A DNA stretch of 64,000 bases from an uncultured Bacteroidales bacterium (GTDB lineage Bacteria; Bacteroidota; Bacteroidia; Bacteroidales; F082): the NCBI GenBank assembly GCA_900317155.1, contig ONFO01000010.1, positions 27,362 through 91,361 of the forward strand, read 5' to 3'. Both the position numbers and the translations under genes were made by a program. Of the stretch, positions 10,166 through 29,207 are shown in pieces. The notes under the pieces are model-generated. The model saw only the letters and a list, made by a program, of their open reading frames with translations, was not told the origin of the DNA and ran no database searches. Each line of letters opens with the position of its first letter. The stretch's first letter is position 1.

Positions 10166-12103
10166 ATGAAAAAGTTATTTACTTTAGCATTAGTCTTGTT
10201 GGTGGCCACTGCTGGCTACTCGCAAGTGAGAAAGATGTCGTCAAACGACACTAAGAGAAGAGCTGCCACCATGCAAGTGACCAAAGGCATGGAGGTTTTC
10301 GAAAACGTGCAAAACGAGCCTAACATGGTGCGTAGCGACGGCGAGCTTGACTACTCGACCTACGACTGGCAGTCGAACTGTGGCCCGCGCACTTGGACCA
10401 TCACCTGGCCTGATGGCAAAGTTAACTTCGCCTACACCATTGCTTCCGACAACACCTTCAGCGACCGTGGTACCGGCATCGGCACCTACGATGCAGTAAA
10501 CGACGTGTGGACTCCACTCGATGGCCGTATCGAAAATGAGAGAACTGGTTTTGGCTCCATCGCCCGCTTCAAGGACAATGGCATCGTCGTTGCTGCCCAT
10601 ACTGCCAACGACCTTTGCATCTACATTGTAGAAGACAAGGACAACATGACAGCTAACAGCGTCCCGCATTCACTCGCTGTCGGCAGCGATGCCTACACGC
10701 ATCCTGCAGTGATGACCTCGGGCGAAAACCGTGACATCATCCACATGGCTGCCGCTAAGTTCGGAGCTTACGAAGGTGACGTTTACGAGCCCATCCGCTA
10801 CTGGCGTTCGTCCGACGGTGGCCAAACTTGGGACAAAGAGTATGTCGAGCTTCCCTTCCTCACCCAAGAATATGGTATCAACTGGGGCACCAACAGCTAC
10901 TATTGGATGGAAACCACCGAAGACAACCGTTTGGCCCTCGTCATCAACAACAGCTGGAGCGATGGCATGGTTATCTATAGCGACGACAACGGCGAAACTT
11001 GGGACAGAACAGTGTTCTATCACCACCCTGGTCCCTTCGAGCAATATCCCGACGACCATGTGGCTTTCCTCTATCCTCGTTGGACCTCTGCCCAGTGGGG
11101 CGCTAACAACGAACTCTGCCTGGCCTATGAATTCAACGGAACCAACGATGCAGCTTCCAGCGTTGATGGTGGCTACTATCCTGGCATCGGTGGCGTCGCC
11201 TTCTGGAGCGAAAGCCTGCCTTACCACGGCGAAAGCCTGCCCCAATACGGCGTTGACCCAACCAACCCCATGCCTACCACTCCTGGTCAACCCTTCATCA
11301 TGGACAGTGCCTATATCATGCAAGACATTTACATGAGCTGGATGCTTTGGAGCGATCAAACCCACGACATGTTCCCTGAATATATGGGTTATCTTGCCCC
11401 ATTGGACGAAAATGGCCAGCCCGAAGGCCCCACAATTGATGATGTCACCCATGCTCTCGGCATTGAAGATCTCTCCAATTGTCACGGTAAATACAATTGC
11501 GGTCCGACCGCCATGCCCGCGATGGCCAAGGTGAGCGACAATGCTTTTGTCGCCGTTTGGAGCTCAGTAGATGAGTTAAACATTGATGGTTCTTCAAACT
11601 TGAACTACTTCAAGCTCTTTGCTTCCGCTTCCGATGATGGTGGTCGCACTTGGGATCATCAAGTCCAGCTCACCACCGACTTCATGTTTGAAATGTCAGA
11701 ATGTGTCTACCCACAAGCTGCTGTGGTTGGCAACACCCTCGTAGTCGCCGCTCAATTTGACGGTGGCACTGGTTCTTTCGTCCAAAACGACGACACAGAA
11801 TCTGGCGACAACTACTACCAAGGCCTGACCTTCGAACTGACCGACCTCTTCCCAGGTTTTGATGCAGTGGACGAAGTGGTGAGCCACAACACGCACATGA
11901 ACGTCTATCCTAACCCTGCCACCGACCAAATCGGCATCACCCTCAGCCAAAACGCTGACATCGTGATCTACAACATCATGGGTCAAAACGTGATGACTGT
12001 GGAAGGCCACGCCGGTGCCAACACCATCAACATCAGCAACCTTACGAGCGGTATCTACTTCGTCAACGCTGGTACCGAAACCCAGAAGTTCATTGTGAAA
12101 TAA
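10166..12103 (+). CDS. Secreted Asp-box (BNR) protein, T9SS cargo (copy 2 of 3)
   Basis: 645 residues. Signal peptide at 1-19. Three Asp-boxes: S-S-D-G-G-Q-T-W, S-D-D-N-G-E-T-W and S-D-D-G-G-R-T-W. The family-specific motifs Y-D-W-Q-S-N (about 66-71), Y-Y-P-G-I-G-G-V and L-P-Y-H-G-E-S recur in copy 3. The C-terminal T9SS domain (V-Y-P-N-P-A-T-D, ending F-I-V-K) is almost identical to that of copy 3 at both protein and DNA level. It has its own promoter and hairpin terminator, so it is probably monocistronic. Extracellular or surface attached; molecular target unknown. Confidence 0.85.
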   Translation: MKKLFTLALVLLVATAGYSQVRKMSSNDTKRRAATMQVTKGMEVFENVQNEPNMVRSDGELDYSTYDWQSNCGPRTWTITWPDGKVNFAYTIASDNTFSDRGTGIGTYDAVNDVWTPLDGRIENERTGFGSIARFKDNGIVVAAHTANDLCIYIVEDKDNMTANSVPHSLAVGSDAYTHPAVMTSGENRDIIHMAAAKFGAYEGDVYEPIRYWRSSDGGQTWDKEYVELPFLTQEYGINWGTNSYYWMETTEDNRLALVINNSWSDGMVIYSDDNGETWDRTVFYHHPGPFEQYPDDHVAFLYPRWTSAQWGANNELCLAYEFNGTNDAASSVDGGYYPGIGGVAFWSESLPYHGESLPQYGVDPTNPMPTTPGQPFIMDSAYIMQDIYMSWMLWSDQTHDMFPEYMGYLAPLDENGQPEGPTIDDVTHALGIEDLSNCHGKYNCGPTAMPAMAKVSDNAFVAVWSSVDELNIDGSSNLNYFKLFASASDDGGRTWDHQVQLTTDFMFEMSECVYPQAAVVGNTLVVAAQFDGGTGSFVQNDDTESGDNYYQGLTFELTDLFPGFDAVDEVVSHNTHMNVYPNPATDQIGITLSQNADIVIYNIMGQNVMTVEGHAGANTINISNLTSGIYFVNAGTETQKFIVK

Positions 12104-12272: not shown

Positions 12273-14210
12273 ATGAAAAAGTTATTTACTTTTGCATTGG
12301 CCCTGATGGTAGTTGTTGGCAGCTACGCACAGGTGCAAAAAGTGTCGAGTAAAGACGCTAAGATGAAAGTCGCCCAAGAGATGACCCTCTCAGGCGAAGA
12401 ATTGTATCAAAATGTCGGTAGCTTGCCGAACATGACCCGCACGGATGCCGAATTGGACTTCACCACCTACGACTGGCAGACCAACACGGCCGGCAAGAAC
12501 TGGACCATGACCTTCCCCGATGGTTGCGTGGGTATGGCTTACGTCATTGCCACCGACCAGGATTACACCGACCGTGGCACGAACATCGCCATTTACTATC
12601 CCCAAGATGATGCTTGGAAAACCTCGGAAGGCCTGATTGAAGACCACAAGACCGGCTTTGGCTGCGCCGCCCGCTACGGACAAAACGGCATCGTGGTGGT
12701 TTCGCGTAACCCCAGCAGCAGCACCTGCGAAGTCTACATCATCGAAGACAAGGACAACCTGCCTCACGGCGACCTTGCTCCTATCTACGTCATGGATGGT
12801 GAGCACAACCCACACTTCCCTGCTGTGATGTGCACTGGTCCCAACCACGACCACATCCACATCCTCGTCACTGGCCTCAACGAGACAACTGCTGACGGCC
12901 AAGTCAATCCCTACTACTACATCCGTTCTTTGGACGGCGGCCAGACCTGGAGCGACTTCATGACCATCGACTTCCTCGGCCGTAACTACTGCCCCCAATA
13001 CGGTAGTGGCCAAGATGCCTACTTCATGGAGAACACTGGCGGCAACCGACTTGACATCGTGGTGAACACCCGTCGTGGCGATGGCGTCGTGCTGACTTCT
13101 AATGACGAAGGCGACACCTGGACGAGAACCGAGTACTATCACCACCCCGGCATCGACGTCGATTTCGGCGAAAGCATGTACATGTATCCTCGTTGGACTT
13201 CAGCATTGTGGGACAACAGCGGTGTCCTGCACCTAGCCTACGAGTTTGGCGGCGGCACCGGTGATGCCACCTCAACAAGCTACTATCCTGGCATCGGTGG
13301 CGTGGTTTATTGGAACAGCGAAATGCCCTACCACGGCGAAAGTATCCCCCAATATGGCTGCGACCCCAACAACCCCAAACCCATGAGCCCTGGCGAACCT
13401 TTCATCATCGACTCTGCTTACATCAACCAAGATATTTATGCTTCTTGGTGGTTATGGAGTGATGCCACTCACCCCATGTGGAGCGAATACATTGGTTACC
13501 TCACACCTCTGGATGAAACCGAACAGCCCCTCGTCGACCCCTACGAGGCCGCTTCATGGAATATTGAATTGGACGGAATCGGTGATGCCCATGGTCACTA
13601 TAACGGCGGCGTCTGCGAAATGCCCGTGTTGGTTAAGACCCCTAACGATGATTTGTTTGTTGCCGTATGGATTGCTATGGATGAGCACCATACGACCAGC
13701 GCCGGCATGCACTACTTCAAGGTATTCACCCGTGCCTCTATGGACCATGGTTTGACATGGACCCCCATGAAGCACCTCACTTCCGACTTCATGTTTGAAA
13801 TGTCGGAATGCGTCTACCCACAAGCTGCCATCACAGGCAACACCCTCGTGGTCGCCTGCCAAATGGATGGTGAGCCTCACTCCTACACCGTCAACAACGG
13901 TGACACCGAGGCATACGACAACTACTATCAGGCCTTCAGTTTTGACCTGGATGAACTCTTCGGCTTCGACGCCGTGGAAGAACAAGTGAGCAGCAACACG
14001 AAGATGAACCTCTATCCCAATCCTGCCGTTGACCAACTCAACATCACCCTCAACCAAAACACTGACATCGTGATCTACAACATCATGGGTCAAAACGTGA
14101 TGACTGTGGAAGGCCATGCTGGTGCCAACACCATCAACATCAGCAACCTGATGAGCGGCGTTTACTTCGTCAACGCTGGCACTGAAACCCAGAAGTTCAT
14201 TGTGAAGTAA
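12273..14210 (+). CDS. Secreted Asp-box (BNR) protein, T9SS cargo (copy 3 of 3)
   Basis: 645 residues, the same length as copy 2 and colinear with it. Signal peptide at 1-19 (…VVGSYAQ). Asp-box or degenerate Asp-box motifs: S-L-D-G-G-Q-T-W, S-N-D-E-G-D-T-W and S-M-D-H-G-L-T-W (third degenerate). It shares with copy 2 the segments Y-H-H-P-G, M-Y-P-R-W-T-S-A, Y-Y-P-G-I-G-G-V-V-Y-W and D-F-M-F-E-M-S-E-C-V-Y-P-Q-A. It ends in the same T9SS sorting domain. The last ~160 nt differ from copy 2 at only a handful of bases, suggesting recent duplication or gene conversion limited to the sorting domain. Function unknown. Confidence 0.85.
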   Translation: MKKLFTFALALMVVVGSYAQVQKVSSKDAKMKVAQEMTLSGEELYQNVGSLPNMTRTDAELDFTTYDWQTNTAGKNWTMTFPDGCVGMAYVIATDQDYTDRGTNIAIYYPQDDAWKTSEGLIEDHKTGFGCAARYGQNGIVVVSRNPSSSTCEVYIIEDKDNLPHGDLAPIYVMDGEHNPHFPAVMCTGPNHDHIHILVTGLNETTADGQVNPYYYIRSLDGGQTWSDFMTIDFLGRNYCPQYGSGQDAYFMENTGGNRLDIVVNTRRGDGVVLTSNDEGDTWTRTEYYHHPGIDVDFGESMYMYPRWTSALWDNSGVLHLAYEFGGGTGDATSTSYYPGIGGVVYWNSEMPYHGESIPQYGCDPNNPKPMSPGEPFIIDSAYINQDIYASWWLWSDATHPMWSEYIGYLTPLDETEQPLVDPYEAASWNIELDGIGDAHGHYNGGVCEMPVLVKTPNDDLFVAVWIAMDEHHTTSAGMHYFKVFTRASMDHGLTWTPMKHLTSDFMFEMSECVYPQAAITGNTLVVACQMDGEPHSYTVNNGDTEAYDNYYQAFSFDLDELFGFDAVEEQVSSNTKMNLYPNPAVDQLNITLNQNTDIVIYNIMGQNVMTVEGHAGANTINISNLMSGVYFVNAGTETQKFIVK

Positions 14211-21771: not shown

Positions 21772-23007
21772 ATGTTGGAAAACAAATACAAAGAATCCGT
21801 CCTTCCGAACGGAATTCGGCTGATACATAAGGAAAAACAAGGCGAAATTGCCCATCTTGTGCTGATGGTGGAGACTGGCACTCGCGATGAACTGGCCTAC
21901 GAGAACGGCCTCGCTCATTTTGTGGAGCACACCATCTTCAAAGGCACACAAAACCGTAAGGCGTATCATATCCTAAGCTGCCTCGACAATGTGGGCGGCG
22001 ACCTCAACGCCTTCACCACCAAGGAGGAGACCTGCTTGCAGGCCACCTTCCTCAAGCAGCACTACAAGCGCAGCCTCGACCTCTTCGCCGACATCGCCTT
22101 CCGTTCCACCTTCCCAGAAAACGAGCTGGCCAAGGAGAAGGAAGTCATCTTGGACGAGATCAACTCCTATTTGGATTCTCCATCGGACGAGATTTACGAT
22201 TTGTTTGAAGAGATGGTCTTCAAAGGGCATCCTTTGTCGCGCAACATATTGGGCACCACAGAATTGGTGAAAGGCTTCCATCGCGAGGACATCCTCGACT
22301 TCATGGCGCACAACTACAGCACCGACCAAATGATTTTGGCCTCTATTGGCGACATCAGCTTCAAGGAGTTTGAGCGGATGGCCATGACGTATTTCGGAAA
22401 CCAACCGGCACACATTATTAATAAGAAACGCGAAATCTTCAAAGGCTACACACCTGAAAGCCGCATTGACAAGCGTAACAACCACTTGAGCCACTGCATC
22501 ATAGGTAATATTGCACCCGAGTTCAGCAGTTCCATGCGCATGCCCATCGTCATGCTCAACAACGTGCTCGGCGGTCCAGCCATGAGCTCCCGCCTCGGCT
22601 TGAACATCCGTGAGAAATACGGCTTCGCCTACAGCATCGAGTCGCAATACACCGCTTATTCCGACGTCGGTCTCATTAATGTCTACATGGGCGTCGACCC
22701 CGACTCACTGGAACGTGCAATAGAGTTGGTCCACAAGGAACTGGACAAGCTCTGCACCCAGAAACTGGGCACTTTGCAACTGCATCACGCCAAGCAGCAA
22801 CTCATCGGACAAGTGGCATTGAGCTACGAAAGCGGCATGAATGAACTACTTAGCGTCACCCGTTCACTCATCATGGGTGAGCCCATAGAATACATGGACG
22901 ACATCATTCAAAAGGTGGAGGCCGTGACGGCTGAAGACATTCTTGAAGTGGCCAACCGCGTATTCGACGAGAAGCAGCTGAGTCAAATTATCTTTGAAGG
23001 GAATTGA
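21772..23007 (+). CDS. M16 family zinc metallopeptidase (processing-peptidase-like)
   Basis: 411 residues. The inverted zinc motif H-x-x-E-H is H49-F-V-E52-H53, followed by T-I-F-K-G-T, and the distal zinc ligand lies in E-V-I-L-D-E-I (about 122-128). The second half contains the family's R-x-G-L-N-I-R-E-K-Y-G-F-A-Y-S substrate-binding motif (around 275-289). The length fits the single-unit 'PqqL/YmxG-like' M16B peptidases. No signal peptide is visible, so it is likely cytoplasmic or membrane-associated, degrading peptides. It stands alone with a promoter shared back-to-back with the subtilisin gene. Confidence 0.92.
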   Translation: MLENKYKESVLPNGIRLIHKEKQGEIAHLVLMVETGTRDELAYENGLAHFVEHTIFKGTQNRKAYHILSCLDNVGGDLNAFTTKEETCLQATFLKQHYKRSLDLFADIAFRSTFPENELAKEKEVILDEINSYLDSPSDEIYDLFEEMVFKGHPLSRNILGTTELVKGFHREDILDFMAHNYSTDQMILASIGDISFKEFERMAMTYFGNQPAHIINKKREIFKGYTPESRIDKRNNHLSHCIIGNIAPEFSSSMRMPIVMLNNVLGGPAMSSRLGLNIREKYGFAYSIESQYTAYSDVGLINVYMGVDPDSLERAIELVHKELDKLCTQKLGTLQLHHAKQQLIGQVALSYESGMNELLSVTRSLIMGEPIEYMDDIIQKVEAVTAEDILEVANRVFDEKQLSQIIFEGN

Positions 23008-23334
23008 ATGATTTTTCTCAGGGGATAAAATCTTATTAAAGCAGAATATTTCATTTTAAAAAGGAATTTTTTGGCTTAAACTATAATTCTTTCAAAAAAA
23101 ACAGCATTTTTTCTCAGCTGTCACACAGCGGGTTATCCCTTGTGACGAAAAATAGTTGAAAAAATAGCTTGACAAAAATTTCTAAGGTTGTACATTTGCA
23201 ACATAAAACAACCGTAATACTACTTTAAGCGGAATATTTTTGATTAAATAGTTTAAACAACATGCGGCTTAGGCCAACAAATTGACAACATGAAACACAA
23301 TTAACGGAATCATTCACCCTCAAAAACTAAAGCT
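23008..23334 (+). promoter_or_regulatory. Cassette copy A: conserved promoter and leader region (327 nt without a gene)
   Basis: From about 23140 this region matches 26478-26673 closely and 28350-28510 partly. It contains a textbook promoter (TTG 23169-23171, 19-nt spacer, TACATTTG 23191-23198), then a ~135-nt leader with AAGCGGAATATTTTT, GGCTTAGGCCAACAAATTGACAAC and a 4-codon upstream ORF at 23290-23304 (M-K-H-N-stop). The 5' part (23008-23140) is an AT-rich, more diverged copy of the sequence upstream of copies B and C. Confidence 0.85.
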
Positions 23335-24861
23335 ATGAGAAAAAAAACTCTACTCCTTTTGGTGCTTTGCAGCTATTACATGGCATCAATGGCTCAGCAG
23401 CCACCTCTCTCACGCTGCAATGCCAACAACATCAACGCAACTATCATAGGCGATGGCTCTTGCTATGCGAAACTTGCCCTTATCAACCCCGACAACTGCC
23501 CTACATGGGAAGTGCCCGCTGGCAGCGGCAAAGAGACTGTTTTCCAGCATGCACTGTGGTTTGGCGGTCTCGATGCTGACGATAATCTCCACTTGTCTGC
23601 TTTCAGGTATGGCCAAGTCGGCCAGGACTACTGGTCAGGACCACTCACAACAACCGATGCCACCATCGACATGATGACCCTGATGAAGTATTATCATGTA
23701 TGGAATCTGACCCGTGAAGAAATCAACTTTTTCATTGTTCACCACGGCGAAGCGGGTTATGAGATCCCCGATGACATCCTGACTTGGCCCGCCCACGGTG
23801 AGGGCGACTACGCAGCCAACCTCGCGCCTTTTGTCGATGTGGACGGAGACGGACATTACAACCCTGAAGCAGGCGATTATCCCGACATCAAAGGTGACCA
23901 GTGTCTGTACTTCATTTTCAATGACAGTTATAGGGACCATACCGAATCAGGAGGTAGCAAAATCGGGCTCGAAGTACACGCCATGGTATACGCCTATAGC
24001 GATCCCAAAGACGAGGCCCTTCATAACACGGTGTTTTTCAACTACCAATTCTTCAACCGCTCAGCAGATGACTATCACGACGTGTATCTGGGACTTTGGT
24101 CAGACTTTGACATCGGATATGGCTGGGATGATTACATCGGCTGCGACGTACAACGGAGCTCCTACTTTGGCTATAACGGTACCCCCATCGATGGCAGCGG
24201 TGAGCCCGAGGCCTACGGCGATAACCCACCCGTGCAGGTGCTGACCATTTTGGCAGGTCCTTACATGGAAGCTGATGGGCGCGACAACCCAGAGTTCAAC
24301 GGAGATTGCGATGCTCTCTTCAACGAAACGTACCCTGCCGACAAATACGCCTACAACGGCTTCAACTTCGGAAACGGCATTGTTGACGACGAACGTTTAG
24401 GCATGACGGGGTTCATGTATCACAACAATGTTGTAGGCACAAATGGTGACCCCAGTGAACCTGAAGACTATTACAACTATCTGCGCGGCAACTGGAAAAA
24501 CGGCAACCACATGAAGTATGGAGGCAATGGCTTTGAAGGCCAAAATGTGGTAGGCCCAGAATGCAACTTCATGTTCCCAGGCGACAGCGACCCTTGTAAC
24601 TTCGGCACCAGCGGCATCGCACCAAATGAAGACTACAACACCGGCGACAAATTTTGGACAGAGGTTGAATGCCAGAACGCACCCAACGACCGTAGAGGTC
24701 TTGGCATGGTTGGTCCTTTCAACTTCAACGCTGGCAGCACACAGGTGGTTGACTATGCCTTGACCACAGTGTGGAAAAACGACGACCATTCTGCCATGGA
24801 GCGCATGGATGCCATCATCGACCACATCAAGGACACGTTCAAAAACGGTTTTTCAAAATAA
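23335..24861 (+). CDS. Secreted protein of unknown function, first gene of cassette A
   Basis: 508 residues, signal peptide at 1-20 (…ASMAQ). The start is the first ATG after the leader. It contains a calcium-loop-like stretch D-V-D-G-D-G-H-Y-N-P-E-A-G-D-Y-P (about 165-180), as in large Bacteroidota surface proteins, and many aromatic/Asp-rich strands (G-L-W-S-D-F-D-I-G-Y-G-W-D-D-Y). There is no T9SS sorting domain of its own; it ends abruptly at F-K-N-G-F-S-K. The next gene starts 36 nt downstream and does carry one, so the pair may act together on the surface. I do not recognise the family. Confidence 0.7.
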   Translation: MRKKTLLLLVLCSYYMASMAQQPPLSRCNANNINATIIGDGSCYAKLALINPDNCPTWEVPAGSGKETVFQHALWFGGLDADDNLHLSAFRYGQVGQDYWSGPLTTTDATIDMMTLMKYYHVWNLTREEINFFIVHHGEAGYEIPDDILTWPAHGEGDYAANLAPFVDVDGDGHYNPEAGDYPDIKGDQCLYFIFNDSYRDHTESGGSKIGLEVHAMVYAYSDPKDEALHNTVFFNYQFFNRSADDYHDVYLGLWSDFDIGYGWDDYIGCDVQRSSYFGYNGTPIDGSGEPEAYGDNPPVQVLTILAGPYMEADGRDNPEFNGDCDALFNETYPADKYAYNGFNFGNGIVDDERLGMTGFMYHNNVVGTNGDPSEPEDYYNYLRGNWKNGNHMKYGGNGFEGQNVVGPECNFMFPGDSDPCNFGTSGIAPNEDYNTGDKFWTEVECQNAPNDRRGLGMVGPFNFNAGSTQVVDYALTTVWKNDDHSAMERMDAIIDHIKDTFKNGFSK

Positions 24862-24897
24862 CACAATCAATCATATAACACTTTAATACTGAATGCT

Positions 24898-26247
24898 ATG
24901 AAAAAGATATACCTCATTGTCATGCTCCTCATGACAGGCATGATGGCCGAAGCCCAAACCAGCGTTTGGAATGGCAGCCGCAGACTTTGGACAAGCGGCG
25001 AAGGCACTGAGAGCAATCCCTACCTGATTGAATCGGCAGAACAGCTTGCCTTTCTTTCCTACATGGTCAACAAAGGACTCGTCACAACTGATTTGAACTT
25101 CAAGCTGACTACTGACATCGACTTGAATGGCAGTGAAGATCTGCCTTGGGTTCCCATCGGATTAGGCGACCGCTGGTTCAGCGAAGACGGTTGCGAGCGA
25201 CTCATCGACCCATCCTACACCCCAGTCTATTTTTGCGGGCATTTCGACGGAAACGGGCACAGCATTTACAACCTTTATGTTGATGGAGGCACCTATGTCG
25301 GACTGTTCGGACTAGTATCAGGACAAGGTTCTTTGATCGAGAACCTCAACATCGAAAACGGTTATGTCAACGGCACCTATAGTGGAGGCATTATCGGACA
25401 ATGCACGGGCGCTGTAGATATATTAAACTGTCTGAACAGTGCAGAGATTGTAGGCACAGAAGCTGCTGGAGGCATTGTCGGGCAAGGAGGAAACGTCATC
25501 CGCAACTGTAGCAACTCCGGCCATATCGTCAGTTCAAGCTATGCTGGTGGTATCGCAGGTTCACTGGCCAAAGAGCTTTACGAGTGCTTCAACACGGGCG
25601 GTATCAACGTCAATGGCTCCGCCGCAGGAGGCATCTTAGGCAGAAGAGGCGGAGAAAAGCTTATCATCGTCAACTGTTACAACCGAGGTGATCTGTCGGG
25701 CAATGCGACCCATGGCATCGGCGGTATTGCTGGCATCGCCAACGGTAACACGACAGACATCCGCAACTGTTATAATGTGGGTAGCATCACCAACGACAGT
25801 GGCAACGCAGGCGGATTGTTCGGCTATGATAATGTAAACAACATCAACAATGTCTATTACCTCAACAATTGCGGTGGCTGGGGACCTGGGGAGGACAAAA
25901 CTGCCGAAGAAATGCGCGACCCCGCTTTTGTCGACTTACTGAATCTCAACACCAATGTCTGGGGCTACGACGAATACAACATCAACGACGGGTATCCCAT
26001 CCTGACAAGCACCCTTATGTCGACCGAAGAGACTGTCGTCAACACGATGAGCGTCTATCCCAACCCCGCCAAGAGTAGTTTCACAGTGGAAGGCACGGGC
26101 CTGCTGAGCATCATCAATGTCCTTGGACAGACAGTCATGGAAAAGCCGATTGAAGAGATGTCAATTATCACGCTCTCCGAAGGAATCTACCTCTTGAGAC
26201 TGACCGACGGTAGCGCTTCCACTACAAGAAAAGTGGTTGTATATTAA
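24898..26247 (+). CDS. GLUG-repeat beta-helix surface protein, T9SS cargo
   Basis: 449 residues. Signal peptide at 1-19 (…MMAEAQ). About residues 30-345 are a repeat domain with GLUG-type motifs: Y-S-G-G-I-I-G-Q, A-A-G-G-I-V-G-Q, Y-A-G-G-I-A-G-S, A-A-G-G-I-L-G-R, N-A-G-G-L-F-G-Y, spaced ~20-35 residues, interleaved with N-C-x-N-S/N-x-G strands, suggesting a right-handed beta-helix as in filamentous adhesins. The C-terminal T9SS domain has V-Y-P-N-P-A-K-S and ends G-I-Y-L-L-R-L…V-V-V-Y. It is second in the cassette-A operon and is followed by a hairpin terminator. Probably adhesive or structural. Confidence 0.85.
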   Translation: MKKIYLIVMLLMTGMMAEAQTSVWNGSRRLWTSGEGTESNPYLIESAEQLAFLSYMVNKGLVTTDLNFKLTTDIDLNGSEDLPWVPIGLGDRWFSEDGCERLIDPSYTPVYFCGHFDGNGHSIYNLYVDGGTYVGLFGLVSGQGSLIENLNIENGYVNGTYSGGIIGQCTGAVDILNCLNSAEIVGTEAAGGIVGQGGNVIRNCSNSGHIVSSSYAGGIAGSLAKELYECFNTGGINVNGSAAGGILGRRGGEKLIIVNCYNRGDLSGNATHGIGGIAGIANGNTTDIRNCYNVGSITNDSGNAGGLFGYDNVNNINNVYYLNNCGGWGPGEDKTAEEMRDPAFVDLLNLNTNVWGYDEYNINDGYPILTSTLMSTEETVVNTMSVYPNPAKSSFTVEGTGLLSIINVLGQTVMEKPIEEMSIITLSEGIYLLRLTDGSASTTRKVVVY

Positions 26248-26301
26248 AACACGAAGAATAAGTACTTTTTTTCCATTATGATTTAGGTTTAGTTGATTTG
26301 G

Positions 26302-26330
26302 TAGAGACGGTGCTTGCGCTGTCTCTATTT
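26302..26330 (+). terminator. Terminator of cassette A
   Basis: TAGAGACGGTGC (26302-26313) pairs with GCGCTGTCTCTA (26316-26327) with wobbles, then TTTCTTT. The preceding ~40 nt (CATTATGATTTAGGTTTAGTTGATT) recur before the terminators of cassettes B and C. Confidence 0.8.
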
Positions 26331-26673
26331 CTTTGGATTACCTTGATAATGATTGCTTGCAATAAAATTCGATTAAAGCGGAATAATATTGATTAAAACG
26401 GAAATATTACAAATAAAACAATTAATTTTGGAAAACAAGCGATTTTTTTCTGCTTGACATACAATGAATTATCAAAGGTGACGAAAAATAGTTGAAAAAA
26501 TAGCTTGACAAAAATTTCTAATGTTGTACATTTGCAACATAAAACAACCGTAATACTACTTTAAGCGGAAAATTTTGAATTAAAAAGTCTAAACAACATG
26601 TGGCTTAGGCCAACAAATTGACAACATGAAACACAATTAACGGAATCATTCATCTTCAAAAAACACTAAAACT
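26331..26673 (+). promoter_or_regulatory. Cassette copy B: promoter and leader region
   Basis: The promoter is TTG 26505-26507, 19-nt spacer, TACATTTG 26527-26534. The leader repeats copy A almost base for base, including the 4-codon upstream ORF at 26626-26640 (M-K-H-N-stop), which ends 33 nt before the gene start. The upstream part has two ATTAAA(G/A)CGGAA units and TTTTGGAAAACAAGCGATTTTTTTC, shared closely with copy C. Confidence 0.85.
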
Positions 26674-28134
26674 ATGAAAACCAAACTCTACACCCTCCTC
26701 ACTGGCCTGCTGATGGCCGCCTGCATCACGAGTTACGGACAGGAAATCGTCAGCGAGTTTTCGCCCAATAACATTAGTATCTATTCCAACATCGTGGAAA
26801 CCTCAGACAATCATTTGCTCGTCGGGAGTTGCACCAATTTGTATAATCGCGAATACGTGGTTTACAAGACGACGCCAGAAGGCTCTTTTATGGACAGCGT
26901 GGTTTTCTACAACGAGTACCAACTGCTTGAAATCCCCTCGGTGACCGACACTTTCCTTCTCGTGGGCTTTTCCATCGACAACCCTGGCAACATCTACAGC
27001 CTCAAGCTCACTTGCATTGACGATGACTTGAACACAATCAACGAGGCTTCAATTCCCATCGGAGAGCATTTGTATCGCTTTTGGGACTACAATGTCTTCA
27101 TTACCCCTAACTTGGAAATCGTTTTCCCATACAGCATTGGAAACGGCGACAAGTTTCACATCATGCGACTTGGGCTCGATCTCAATGTAATCGAAGACAA
27201 GACCATCCCCGAAATTGCTCGTGGCACATGGAACAACAACTATACCAGCGACTCTGTCATGTTCTATACCGACATCAGCATCAGCAGCGAAACACCCTTG
27301 AAATACCATTGCCTTGGCTATTACAAAGATGCGACTGGCAATGTGGTTTTCGTCAATCACGTCCTCGACAGCGACTTCAATTGGATAGAAAGCACCGTGC
27401 TGAGTCCCTACGACGAAAGTTCCTCCTTTACTGAGGATGTTCTCACGGCCTATACACCCATCAATTCGGCACAATCCAACGAAAGATTCAATCTTATGAC
27501 CACCTATCTGACCTCACCTAACTACAGCTCTTCTGCCATCATCAAGTATAACGACAAGAACGACCCTGTGGCGATGCTCACTTTCATGGGAGGACATCTC
27601 TCACTGGGTTTAGGCCAGCTTGTTGCCAAAGACTACAACACGATCTATTTCACACACGGATGCTTCGGCTCGCACACAGCTTCACACCTCGTCAGATTGA
27701 ATGGCGACCTCGACATCGCTTGGGAATTGCCCTTGCCTTGCCAAACTGGGACAGTAGCCGTATTGAATTGCCTGAAAGTGTTGGAAAACAACGACATCTT
27801 AGTTGGAGCCATTTTGTATTACCAAAACTTAGACCCTAAACTCAAGATATACATCATCCGCGACGACGACCCGACCACCATCCAAGAAACGGCGACCTTC
27901 GAGAAACCCTTCACCCTCTGCCCCAACCCCGTGAAAGATCTGCTAACCCTCCGCTTCGACGACGGTGACGAGCCCGAGAGCGTTGAACTGTATGACCTTG
28001 CAGGCCGTTTGGTCGGCACCAAGCCAAACGGTCTGGAAAGCATCGACATGAACGCGATGTCCTCCGGGGTGTACATGCTGCGCCTCACGATGAAAGACGG
28101 GACGATCTACCACGAAAAAGTATTGAAAGAATAG
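26674..28134 (+). CDS. Secreted beta-propeller-like protein, T9SS cargo (cassette B)
   Basis: 486 residues, signal peptide at 1-22 (…ITSYGQ). The body is a series of similar beta-meander units with V-x-x-L-x-x-D-x-x motifs (e.g. L-K-L-T-C-I-D-D-D-L, I-I-K-Y-N-D-K-N-D-P, H-L-V-R-L-N-G-D-L-D), compatible with a 6- to 7-bladed propeller. The C-terminal T9SS domain begins L-C-P-N-P-V-K-D (about 409) and ends G-V-Y-M-L-R-L. It has no similarity that I can see to the cassette-A proteins although promoter, leader and terminator match. Function unknown. Confidence 0.75.
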   Translation: MKTKLYTLLTGLLMAACITSYGQEIVSEFSPNNISIYSNIVETSDNHLLVGSCTNLYNREYVVYKTTPEGSFMDSVVFYNEYQLLEIPSVTDTFLLVGFSIDNPGNIYSLKLTCIDDDLNTINEASIPIGEHLYRFWDYNVFITPNLEIVFPYSIGNGDKFHIMRLGLDLNVIEDKTIPEIARGTWNNNYTSDSVMFYTDISISSETPLKYHCLGYYKDATGNVVFVNHVLDSDFNWIESTVLSPYDESSSFTEDVLTAYTPINSAQSNERFNLMTTYLTSPNYSSSAIIKYNDKNDPVAMLTFMGGHLSLGLGQLVAKDYNTIYFTHGCFGSHTASHLVRLNGDLDIAWELPLPCQTGTVAVLNCLKVLENNDILVGAILYYQNLDPKLKIYIIRDDDPTTIQETATFEKPFTLCPNPVKDLLTLRFDDGDEPESVELYDLAGRLVGTKPNGLESIDMNAMSSGVYMLRLTMKDGTIYHEKVLKE

Positions 28135-28176
28135 AATAAGGTTTTTTCCATTATGATTTAGGTTTAGTTGATTTGG

Positions 28177-28202
28177 TAGAGACAGTGCATGCACCGTCTC
28201 TA
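28177..28202 (+). terminator. Terminator of cassette B
   Basis: TAGAGACAGTGCATGCACCGTCTCTA folds into a near-perfect 12-bp stem, followed by TTTTTTA. Confidence 0.9.
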
Positions 28203-28555
28203 TTTTTTAGAATCATCTTGATAATGATGGTTTGCAATAAAATTCGATTAAAGCGGAATTTTATTGATTAAAGCGGAAATATTACAAATAAAACAATTAG
28301 TTTTGGAAAACAAGCGATTTTTTTCAGCTTGACATACAATGAATTATCAAAGGTGACGAAAAATAGTTGAAAAAATAGCTTGACAAAATTTTATCATGTT
28401 GTATATTTGCAGCATAAAACAACAAAAACATGAATTAAAACGGAATAATTTAGATTAAAATTCAAAACAACTCGGGGTTAGGCCAACAAAATAACAACAT
28501 GAAACATATTTACAGTAAGTGCTTTTTTTCATAATGATTTGGTTTTAGTTGATTA
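28203..28555 (+). ncRNA. Cassette copy C: promoter and leader with no gene behind it (possible small RNA or deletion scar)
   Basis: The promoter is intact (TTG 28380-28382, 19-nt spacer, TATATTTG 28402-28409) and the leader is recognisable (TTAGGCCAACAAAATAACAACATG). Where copies A and B reach a large gene, this copy runs directly into the shared pre-terminator sequence (CATAATGATTTGGTTTTAGTTGATT) and a terminator at 28556-28581, giving a predicted transcript of about 165 nt. The leader ORF is extended to 11 codons (28499-28534). It is either a gene-loss scar or a functional short RNA; sequence alone cannot decide. The rest of the 28135-28700 gap is AT-rich with no ORF. Confidence 0.5.
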
Positions 28556-28586
28556 AAGCGGAGACATAACAATCTCCGCTTTTTTC
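28556..28586 (+). terminator. Terminator of cassette C
   Basis: AAGCGGAGA (28556-28564) with TCTCCGCTT (28573-28581), then TTTTTCTC. Confidence 0.85.
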
Positions 28587-28700
28587 TCTTACATGAATGG
28601 CCTTATTTTTCTATTTTTACACGAATGACCATAAATTGCTCACGAATTTTTCATTAATGACAATTCGTGATTCATTGATAGGAATTCGTGTTGGAAAAAA

Positions 28701-29207
28701 TCAATTTGTCTTGAAGTTATACTTCACCTCTTTCAGTTCAGCGTTGGCCTTGGTAATCTTGTTCTTCAGGTTTTCCTTGTAATTCGCGACTTTGGCGGCA
28801 ACTTGTGCATCGCCTAAAGCCAGCATCTCGGCAGCGAGGATGGCGGCATTGAGGGCACCATTCACGCCCACCGTAGCCACGGGAATGCCAGGAGGCATCT
28901 GGATGATGGACAGCATGGCGTCGAGGCCATCGAGCATACCCTTGACAGGCACACCGATGACGGGTAATGTCGTGTTGGCGGCAATCACGCCAGGCAAGGC
29001 GGCGGCCATGCCAGCAGCGGCGATGATTACTTTAATGCCGCGACCTTGTGCTTCGCGGGCAAATTGTTCCACTTCTTGAGGTGTGCGGTGCGCGCTGAGG
29101 GCGTTCATCTCGAACGGGATTTCCATCTCGTCGAAGAACTGCGCGGCTTTTTCGAGAACGGGAAGATCGGAAGTGCTTCCCATGATAATGCTTACTATTG
29201 GAGTCAT
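28701..29207 (-). CDS. purE: N5-carboxyaminoimidazole ribonucleotide mutase
   Basis: 168 residues, the usual length for class I PurE. Converts N5-CAIR to CAIR in de novo purine synthesis. Motifs: I-I-M-G-S-T-S-D-L-P at the N-terminus (substrate phosphate loop), S-A-H-R-T-P (catalytic His), A-A-G-M-A-A-A-L-P-G-V and P-V-I-G-V-P near the middle, and G-V-N-G-A-L-N-A-A at the end. It is divergent from hpt, with which it shares the purine theme. The leader passes through the hairpin at 29226-29342. Confidence 0.96.
   Translation of the reverse strand: MTPIVSIIMGSTSDLPVLEKAAQFFDEMEIPFEMNALSAHRTPQEVEQFAREAQGRGIKVIIAAAGMAAALPGVIAANTTLPVIGVPVKGMLDGLDAMLSIIQMPPGIPVATVGVNGALNAAILAAEMLALGDAQVAAKVANYKENLKNKITKANAELKEVKYNFKTN

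Follow-up and report, generated by a model that had tools for sequence, protein, structure and literature searches.

In Porphyromonas gingivalis, surface virulence factors are diversified by allelic exchange and domain rearrangement, leaving a mosaic that is unrelated to the strain tree, as set out in part of a study of that species (PMC5266723). In the msp2/p44 system of Anaplasma, a fixed expression site is supplied with variants by recombination, according to the part of a second account that deals with it (PMC11946796). Here we describe a locus that looks comparable in a window of 64,000 nucleotides, the whole stretch of DNA analyzed (positions 27,362 to 91,361 of the forward strand of contig ONFO01000010.1, assembly GCA_900317155.1), from an uncultured Bacteroidales bacterium of the F082 lineage. 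Between a gene for an M16 peptidase and purE, the window carries three expression units, A, B and C. Unit A stands before a pair of genes, A1 and A2; unit B stands before a single gene, also called B; and unit C is empty. We read the M16–purE site as a fixed, recombination-driven diversity locus for secreted proteins, with constant ends and an exchangeable coding part, and give this reading a probability of about three in four. A comparison with related genomes shows a fixed site, constant ends, conflicting histories of the flank, the variable passenger and the C-terminal domain (CTD), tandem and empty units, and A1–A2 both on and off the site.

The likeness to P. gingivalis, going by the part of PMC5266723 that bears on it, is in Bacteroidales surface protein variants, including cargo of the type IX secretion system (T9SS), in which adhesin domains vary and the CTD is conserved. 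The exchange treated there is within one species and in several genes, whereas here a single site is involved, across 23 species belonging to one genus. Also unlike P. gingivalis, constant DNA here spans promoter through signal peptide on one side of the passenger and CTD through terminator on the other, units occur in tandem and empty, and an unrelated gene pair has been captured. The M16–purE locus appears to reflect a process of that kind, laid out more clearly and genus-wide. Expression-site antigenic variation is also found in vlsE of Borrelia and vsa of Mycoplasma, with constant ends round a variable middle. In contrast to such systems, tandem units each with a promoter are the rule here, and the variation seen is between species. 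No silent donor copies are seen in the window's own genome (G000), in that there is no second CTD of B in a nucleotide search at E 0.01 and no leader elsewhere, the next match being 30 nt at E 0.005. Integron gene cassettes bring different genes behind one promoter, but the M16–purE interval of the window has no integrase. Constant words are present here, yet the breakpoints are at different places (no attC model was applied). The proteins resemble T9SS type A cargo (TIGR04183/PF18962) in having a signal-peptide-like start, a C-terminal sorting domain and SprA in the genome; they are unlike it in that the DNA of the sorting domain forms part of the constant end of an exchange unit. No paper describing the locus was found in searches of the open-licence literature on T9SS, exchange, variable surface proteins and the promoter.

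The Repeated Unit and Its Chromosomal Site

A preliminary description, made from the letters of the window, proposed that one promoter–leader–terminator unit occurs there three times in front of secreted proteins, with the same promoter and with shared words in the leader and ahead of the terminator. Alignment confirms the three copies. By repeat search, A and B agree at 89% over 221 nt (23106–23326 against 26442–26662; 0.887 on recount), and B and C agree at 90% over 300 nt (26267–26566 against 28142–28441; 0.900 on recount), the longer repeat spanning the pre-terminator of the preceding unit, the promoter and then part of the leader. The promoter, a −33/−7 pair of the form TTG-19 nt-TAnnTTTG, is identical in layout in A, B and C. 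The leader word GGCTTAGGCCAACAAATTGACAACATGAAACACAATTA (three copies, at 100, 100 and 87%) and the pre-terminator word TTTTTTCCATTATGATTTAGGTTTAGTTGATT (three copies, at 100, 100 and 88%) are indeed shared. When copy B is compared with its own genome by BLAST, the matches are copy A (E 7e-84) and copy C (E 4e-63), no fourth copy of the leader is found, and the next match is 30 nt at E 0.005; from that gap it is clear that the similarity of the units is not due to chance. The position in front of secreted proteins holds for copies A and B but not for C, which runs into its terminator without a gene. There, the match to a hidden Markov model (HMM) of the leader stops at 28512, and the match to the terminator HMM begins at 28517, 5 nt apart.

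The M16–purE region was retrieved from 60 of the 99 genomes of the genus (61 loci, with G057 counted twice), the first 20 chosen by leader score and the next 40 mostly by M16 identity. The remaining 39 are covered by a leader-model search and one genus-wide sequence search; 37 of them have M16 at 55–59% identity, and G017 and G045 have no M16 match at 1e-80. The leader model, which is sequence-only, was run on 173 genomes of the family with 17 candidates scored per genome and strict filters. At E 2e-11 or better it yields 29 matches, none outside this genus and each next to M16, purE or both; for 25 of them, both genes are present on the contig (the exceptions being G083, G057 twice and G061). 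The next match, at E 7e-9, is limited to the promoter and the early leader. In the GTDB species collection, a pattern scan found two loci, both in the genus set (G091 and G084). On this evidence, the unit appears to belong to one chromosomal site. We reject the possibility that it is dispersed through the genome, given no fourth copy in G000 and 29 family matches at one site.

The contents of the site differ. Leader matches occur in 23 of the 60 genomes, in 30 copies. Seventeen of these stand before a B-like gene, including unit 1 of G074, in which only the 3′ end of the leader is kept. Three stand before A1–A2 (G000, G084 and G086), and seven have no gene but keep the promoter and the words (G000, G086 twice, G091, G063, G071 and G080). 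Two more are followed by decayed B-like remnants recognized by eye (G018 and G053), and the last, in G061, is cut off by a contig end. The B-like genes fall into six types by our own cut of their tree. Tandem units occur in G000, G086, G074 and G057, and in an alignment of 28 units the leader is shortened in several species. Five genomes (G004, G028, G066, G065 and G089) have no unit; in these, M16 and purE abut at their coding ends. The preliminary description had raised the exchange of coding cassettes behind a constant unit, or else duplication of the unit with a divergent coding part. By the test set in the preliminary description, the absence of further leader copies in the window's own genome by BLAST speaks against a cassette system, and the variety of genes behind the leader in relatives speaks for one; a fixed exchange site reconciles the two. 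What holds of the exchange proposal is that related species have different genes with conflicting histories behind the unit; a genome-wide cassette system is not found. Duplication with a divergent coding part seems to happen alongside exchange.

Histories of the Ends and the Passenger

Protein B has a constant signal peptide at residues 1–24, a variable passenger at about 31–395 and a constant CTD at about 405–486. We compared third-codon identity in the 187 of 253 B-like pairs that are below 45% amino acid identity. It is 72% for the signal peptide, 37% for the middle (residues 31–395) and 62% for the CTD, and for M16 of the same 19 genomes it is 65% over all 171 pairs. By this measure, the ends of B appear to be of roughly the same age as the flank, and in most of these distant pairs the passenger appears much older. 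A neighbouring T9SS S8 protease, taken as a control, gives 57% in the signal peptide, 57% in the catalytic domain, 48% in the middle and 52% in the CTD (105 pairs from 15 genomes).

The trees of M16, passenger and CTD reject one another. In approximately unbiased (AU) tests on 16 of the 23 B-like genes, those of the 16 single-copy genomes, with three genomes having more than one B-like gene left out, all p-AU values are 0.0013 or less, and the Robinson–Foulds distances are 20–22. In the CTD tree, G054 groups with G070 (support 100) and G055 with G059 (support 96); some of its other nodes are weakly supported. The partners in the passenger tree are G070 and G052, G055 and G075, and G059 and G000.

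Synonymous rates (dS) were calculated for 11 chosen pairs. Between B of G054 and B2 of G074, dS is 0.069 in the passenger, 0.54 in the CTD and 1.07 in M16, with flanking genes at 77–93% nucleotide identity; by these rates, the passenger appears to be a recent transfer. G052 shows the opposite relationship to B3 of G074 (passenger 1.54, CTD 0.18, M16 0.28) and to G083 (passenger 1.82, CTD 0.23, M16 0.32), and these have the appearance of old passengers between young ends. In the comparison of G000 with G059, dS is 0.48 in the passenger and 1.10 in M16. The apparent breakpoints vary by case and lie in the leader, at the gene ends or before the CTD.

Within the genome of the window, constant CTDs with variable passengers are also observed away from the site. 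There, five relatives of B at dispersed positions have CTDs at 82–91% nucleotide identity (L186 7290–8888, 11233–12003 and 12082–13635; L190 771–2375; L191 4399–5970). Seven of their ten passenger pairs are at 25–37% protein identity, and the other three are at 51–67%. A nucleotide search with the dispersed CTD gives seven complete or almost complete copies of at least 88%, the query among them, besides a partial copy and another at 67%; of the seven, two are at contig starts. The dispersed relatives form a second clan with a constant CTD, separate from the clan of the window, and the combination of a constant CTD with a variable passenger may extend more widely than the M16–purE site.

The other kind of content, the A1–A2 pair, is found both at the site and away from it. 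The preliminary description took the proteins behind A and B to be unrelated. That is the case for A1 and B, which have no relation by BLASTP (best E 0.46) and a profile comparison probability of 5%, confined to the signal-peptide region. A2 and B have the T9SS CTD in common and nothing else. At E 1e-10 or better, 95 of the 99 genomes in the genus have relatives of A1; many of these matches are partial, to a larger protein. Twelve A1–A2 pairs are found in 12 other genomes at other loci, where neither strand gives a match to the leader or terminator HMM at E values up to 10. Upstream of 11 of these 12 there is a different promoter-like pair, TTGAC...GTAGTTTTG, which G095 does not have. The ends of A2 were seen in 11 of the 12, and their 3′ sequences differ from those of the site. 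In G000, G084 and G086, by comparison, the constant leader runs directly up to the start codon of A1–A2, and the pre-terminator word closes the pair. A further A1–A2 pair in G086, which has diverged and has another promoter sequence, follows a short empty unit and may be a capture intermediate. The interval 23035–26641 as a whole is 94% alike in G086. However, the leader cores of A and B in the window's genome are 95% identical, and that of A is only 88% identical to its G086 counterpart, as expected if copies within a genome correct each other.

Proposed Exchange at the Site and Its Alternatives

One or more units stand between the convergent M16 and purE genes, each made of a motif region, a promoter of the stable-RNA kind, a long A-rich leader, a coding part, the pre-terminator word and, last, a hairpin. 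In the B family, the gene itself is part of the constant DNA at either end, with the signal peptide at the 5′ end and the T9SS CTD at the 3′ end. In the mechanism we propose, the constant ends would act as homology arms for recombination within the genome and with DNA of related species, and the passenger or the whole coding part could be replaced with expression, export and anchoring undisturbed. Unequal crossing over would give rise to tandem units, and deletion would give rise to empty or decayed ones. The agent of exchange is most likely homologous recombination, and the diversity is presumably selected, for example by phage, immunity or competitors.

Plain tandem duplication with birth and death would dispense with exchange between species. 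The passengers would evolve fast, the ends would be held by purifying selection, and lineages would lose different copies. Tandem units do exist in four genomes, G074 holds types found singly in its relatives, and the empty and decayed units demonstrate loss. However, such a history does not lead one to expect a passenger dS about 15 times lower than that of M16, as found for G054 and B2 of G074, nor CTD and passenger trees that reject each other, by which the ends and the middle of the gene differ in history. Protein constraint alone would not bring the third-codon identity of the ends near that of the flank, and the S8 control is without this contrast. In addition, A1–A2 is unrelated to B outside the CTD of A2. 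We consider duplication without exchange unlikely as the whole explanation. Another possibility is that the unit is primarily a small RNA gene, comprising leader and pre-terminator (about 175 nt in copy C), and that it acquired coding parts by insertion; the retention of promoter and words in the seven geneless units fits with this. We regard it as very improbable, since 11 leaders show no consensus structure, the window has no Rfam match at the gathering score, the terminator stem alone is conserved, the leader is shortened in several species, and the B remnants in G018 and G053 suggest that those units formerly had a gene.

We give scarcely any credence to a dedicated mobile or site-specific system of the integron kind, in which the leader and pre-terminator words would be recombination sites. 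It is true that these words are among the most constant parts, that several empty units share nearly one junction, and that a foreign gene pair lies behind the leader from its start codon on. However, the M16–purE interval of the window has no open reading frame (ORF) of at least 150 amino acids besides A1, A2 and B, and hence no recombinase there (genes beyond the interval were not all scanned). The varying breakpoints do not suit it either, nor does a leader found at one site only, with the pre-terminator word elsewhere giving weak matches (best E 0.002). A single inherited deletion best accounts for the nearly identical junctions of the empty units in G000, G086 and G091.

Some observations weigh against exchange at the site as we read it. 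The middle of the S8 control is also its lowest part, at 48%, but the contrast is small. The ratio of nonsynonymous to synonymous rates (dN/dS) of the passenger is 0.10–0.41 in the 11 pairs, with M16 at 0.02–0.08; being below 1, it gives no support from rates to positive selection for diversity. Between G070 and G075, M16 is 98% identical in nucleotides, the B-like proteins are 37% identical in amino acids, and the other flanking genes are at 75–86% (L066, L067). We rejected this pair as a clean gene replacement, as M16 alone is close. The pattern implies that M16 itself was recently exchanged and does not provide a clean species tree, and it suggests that recombination extends beyond the unit. 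No T9SS CTD is detected in A1, which has no Pfam match at 0.001 and no NCBIfam match at 0.1. Part of the pattern is accounted for without transfer by old tandem paralogs that were lost differently between lineages; G074 has three types, and its relatives G052 and G083 have one each. With its 17 candidates per genome and strict filters, the leader-model search could have missed weak copies elsewhere. Finally, there is one genome per species, and the assemblies are drafts (8 to 460 contigs in the genus), two of them metagenome bins; exchange is therefore visible over long times only, and single junctions are possibly assembly errors. The array of G074 (L063) has a unit 1 without a promoter (~13110–13530) and a unit 2 with a run of N (~11210–11640; raw coordinates), and may be partly an assembly artefact.

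A broader version of the exchange reading is that the genus renews its surface proteins through an expression site, with a stable-RNA-type promoter and constant export ends, that takes passengers of other species by recombination, with the dispersed constant-CTD family following the same rule and the empty units serving as docking sites. As a whole, we hold this to be possible but doubtful. Exchange at the M16–purE site itself would provide a concrete, countable case in which Bacteroidales could renew secreted proteins while keeping the promoter, export and anchoring signals, and T9SS sorting domains may double as recombination arms. With the ends and the site known, exchange becomes directly measurable, and the selective agent, be it phage, antibodies or competitors, becomes testable. 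The passengers also make up a natural fusion set using one export signal.

Proteins, Promoter and Other Features of the Interval

The features of the interval are collected in Table 1.

Table 1. Positions of the units, genes and borders in the window.
Feature	Position	Strand	Basis
M16 peptidase gene, left border	21772..23007	+	Pfam PF00675, PF05193; adjoins the site in relatives
Unit A upstream region: TTAAA(A/G)CGGAA-like motifs, A-rich stretch	23027..23168	+	28-unit alignment, motif count
Promoter A, TTG-19-TACATTTG	23169..23198	+	Repeat search, unit alignment
Leader A, A-rich, without conserved RNA structure	23199..23334	+	Repeat and structure analysis
A1, 508 aa, signal-peptide-like start	23335..24861	+	ORF; no CTD found; relatives at other loci
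A2, 449 aa, T9SS type A CTD	24898..26247	+	TIGR04183
Unit A pre-terminator word and hairpin terminator (hairpin about 26302–26327)	26260..26330	+	Repeats, HMM, covarying stem
Unit B upstream region: two motifs 20 nt apart, A-rich stretch	26366..26504	+	Repeats, motif count, alignment
Promoter B	26505..26534	+	Repeats, unit alignment
Leader B	26535..26673	+	Repeats
B, 486 aa, predicted T9SS type A secreted protein	26674..28134	+	TIGR04183, alignments
Unit B pre-terminator word and hairpin terminator	28140..28207	+	Repeats, HMM
Unit C upstream region	28241..28379	+	Repeats, motif count, alignment
Promoter C	28380..28409	+	Repeats, unit alignment
Leader C, no gene after it	28410..28512	+	Leader HMM
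Pre-terminator word and hairpin of empty unit C	28517..28585	+	Repeats, HMM
purE, right border, convergent with M16	28701..29207	−	Named from translation without family-library scan; conserved neighbour

TIGR04183 is matched by A2 at 39.1 bits and by B at 42.8 bits, with a cut-off of 23 bits, and PF18962 is matched by all 23 B-like proteins of the locus at E 0.1 or better. GLUG repeats in A2 are under the cut-off in the window and over it in the G084 relative. Profile searches of the PDB give no match for A1 and matches to the CTD only for B. An AlphaFold model of B from the single sequence has a mean pLDDT of 36.6, and no use was made of it. SprA_N (PF14349), the one core T9SS part tested, scores 551 bits in G000 and is found in none of 14 control genomes. 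The products of A2 and B presumably reach the surface.

The pattern TTG-N18-20-TNNNTTTG is matched by 25 of the 28 units, with 19-nt spacing in all three copies of the window. TTG, about 19 nt and TAnnTTTG is what we take to be the housekeeping promoter consensus of Bacteroidota. In the window's own genome, there are three weaker matches to the leader model near contig ends (C17, C34 and C38). They have in common the A-rich stretch GAAAAATAATTGAAAAAA (in a close form in C17) and the −7 box, and their shared leader is broken off at the contig end, as in collapsed rRNA operons. They are probably rRNA operons, although no rRNA was matched on these three contigs. In G024, a promoter resembling one of these contig-end copies stands before a tRNA (Rfam RF00005). 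We call the unit promoter stable-RNA-like on the strength of these resemblances, and it is presumably a strong one. Motifs of the form TTAAA(A/G)CGGAA occur 20 nt apart upstream of every promoter, with one more in each leader (23036–28563 in the window). Allowing one mismatch, there are 13 matches in the window against 2.8 expected; of these, nine fall within the leaders and upstream regions of units A, B and C, and the terminator of unit C holds one more. The spaced form has four matches in the genome, three of them at this locus, against one for the reversed control. The motif is possibly a regulator site.

In the terminator hairpin, compensatory changes are seen at five of nine stem pairs across 20 units. 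A structured leader RNA or riboswitch was considered and rejected; there are no conserved base pairs among 11 leaders and no match at gathering score in an Rfam scan of the window. The weak matches of the pre-terminator word elsewhere include some that resemble gene starts on the opposite strand. We set aside the idea that the word is itself such a start, for the frame beyond it differs between units. A 30-nt stretch similar to the 3′ end of the leader lies beside a tRNA-like fragment (L004:1501–1591), and the same query range is matched in many genomes of the genus. This match was set aside; ARAGORN reports no tRNA there, and the Rfam score of the fragment, 21.5 bits, is below the cut-off of 29.

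The M16–purE gap of five genomes (L097:1500–2040, L100:1460–1960, G021, G087 and G056) contains a gene for a four-helix-bundle protein of family TIGR02436, by a family scan made on L097 only. It is seen in both orientations, and inverted arrays of GAGGTAGGAGGT-like repeats, read on L097 and L100, flank it. The gene with its repeats looks like a small insertion unit.

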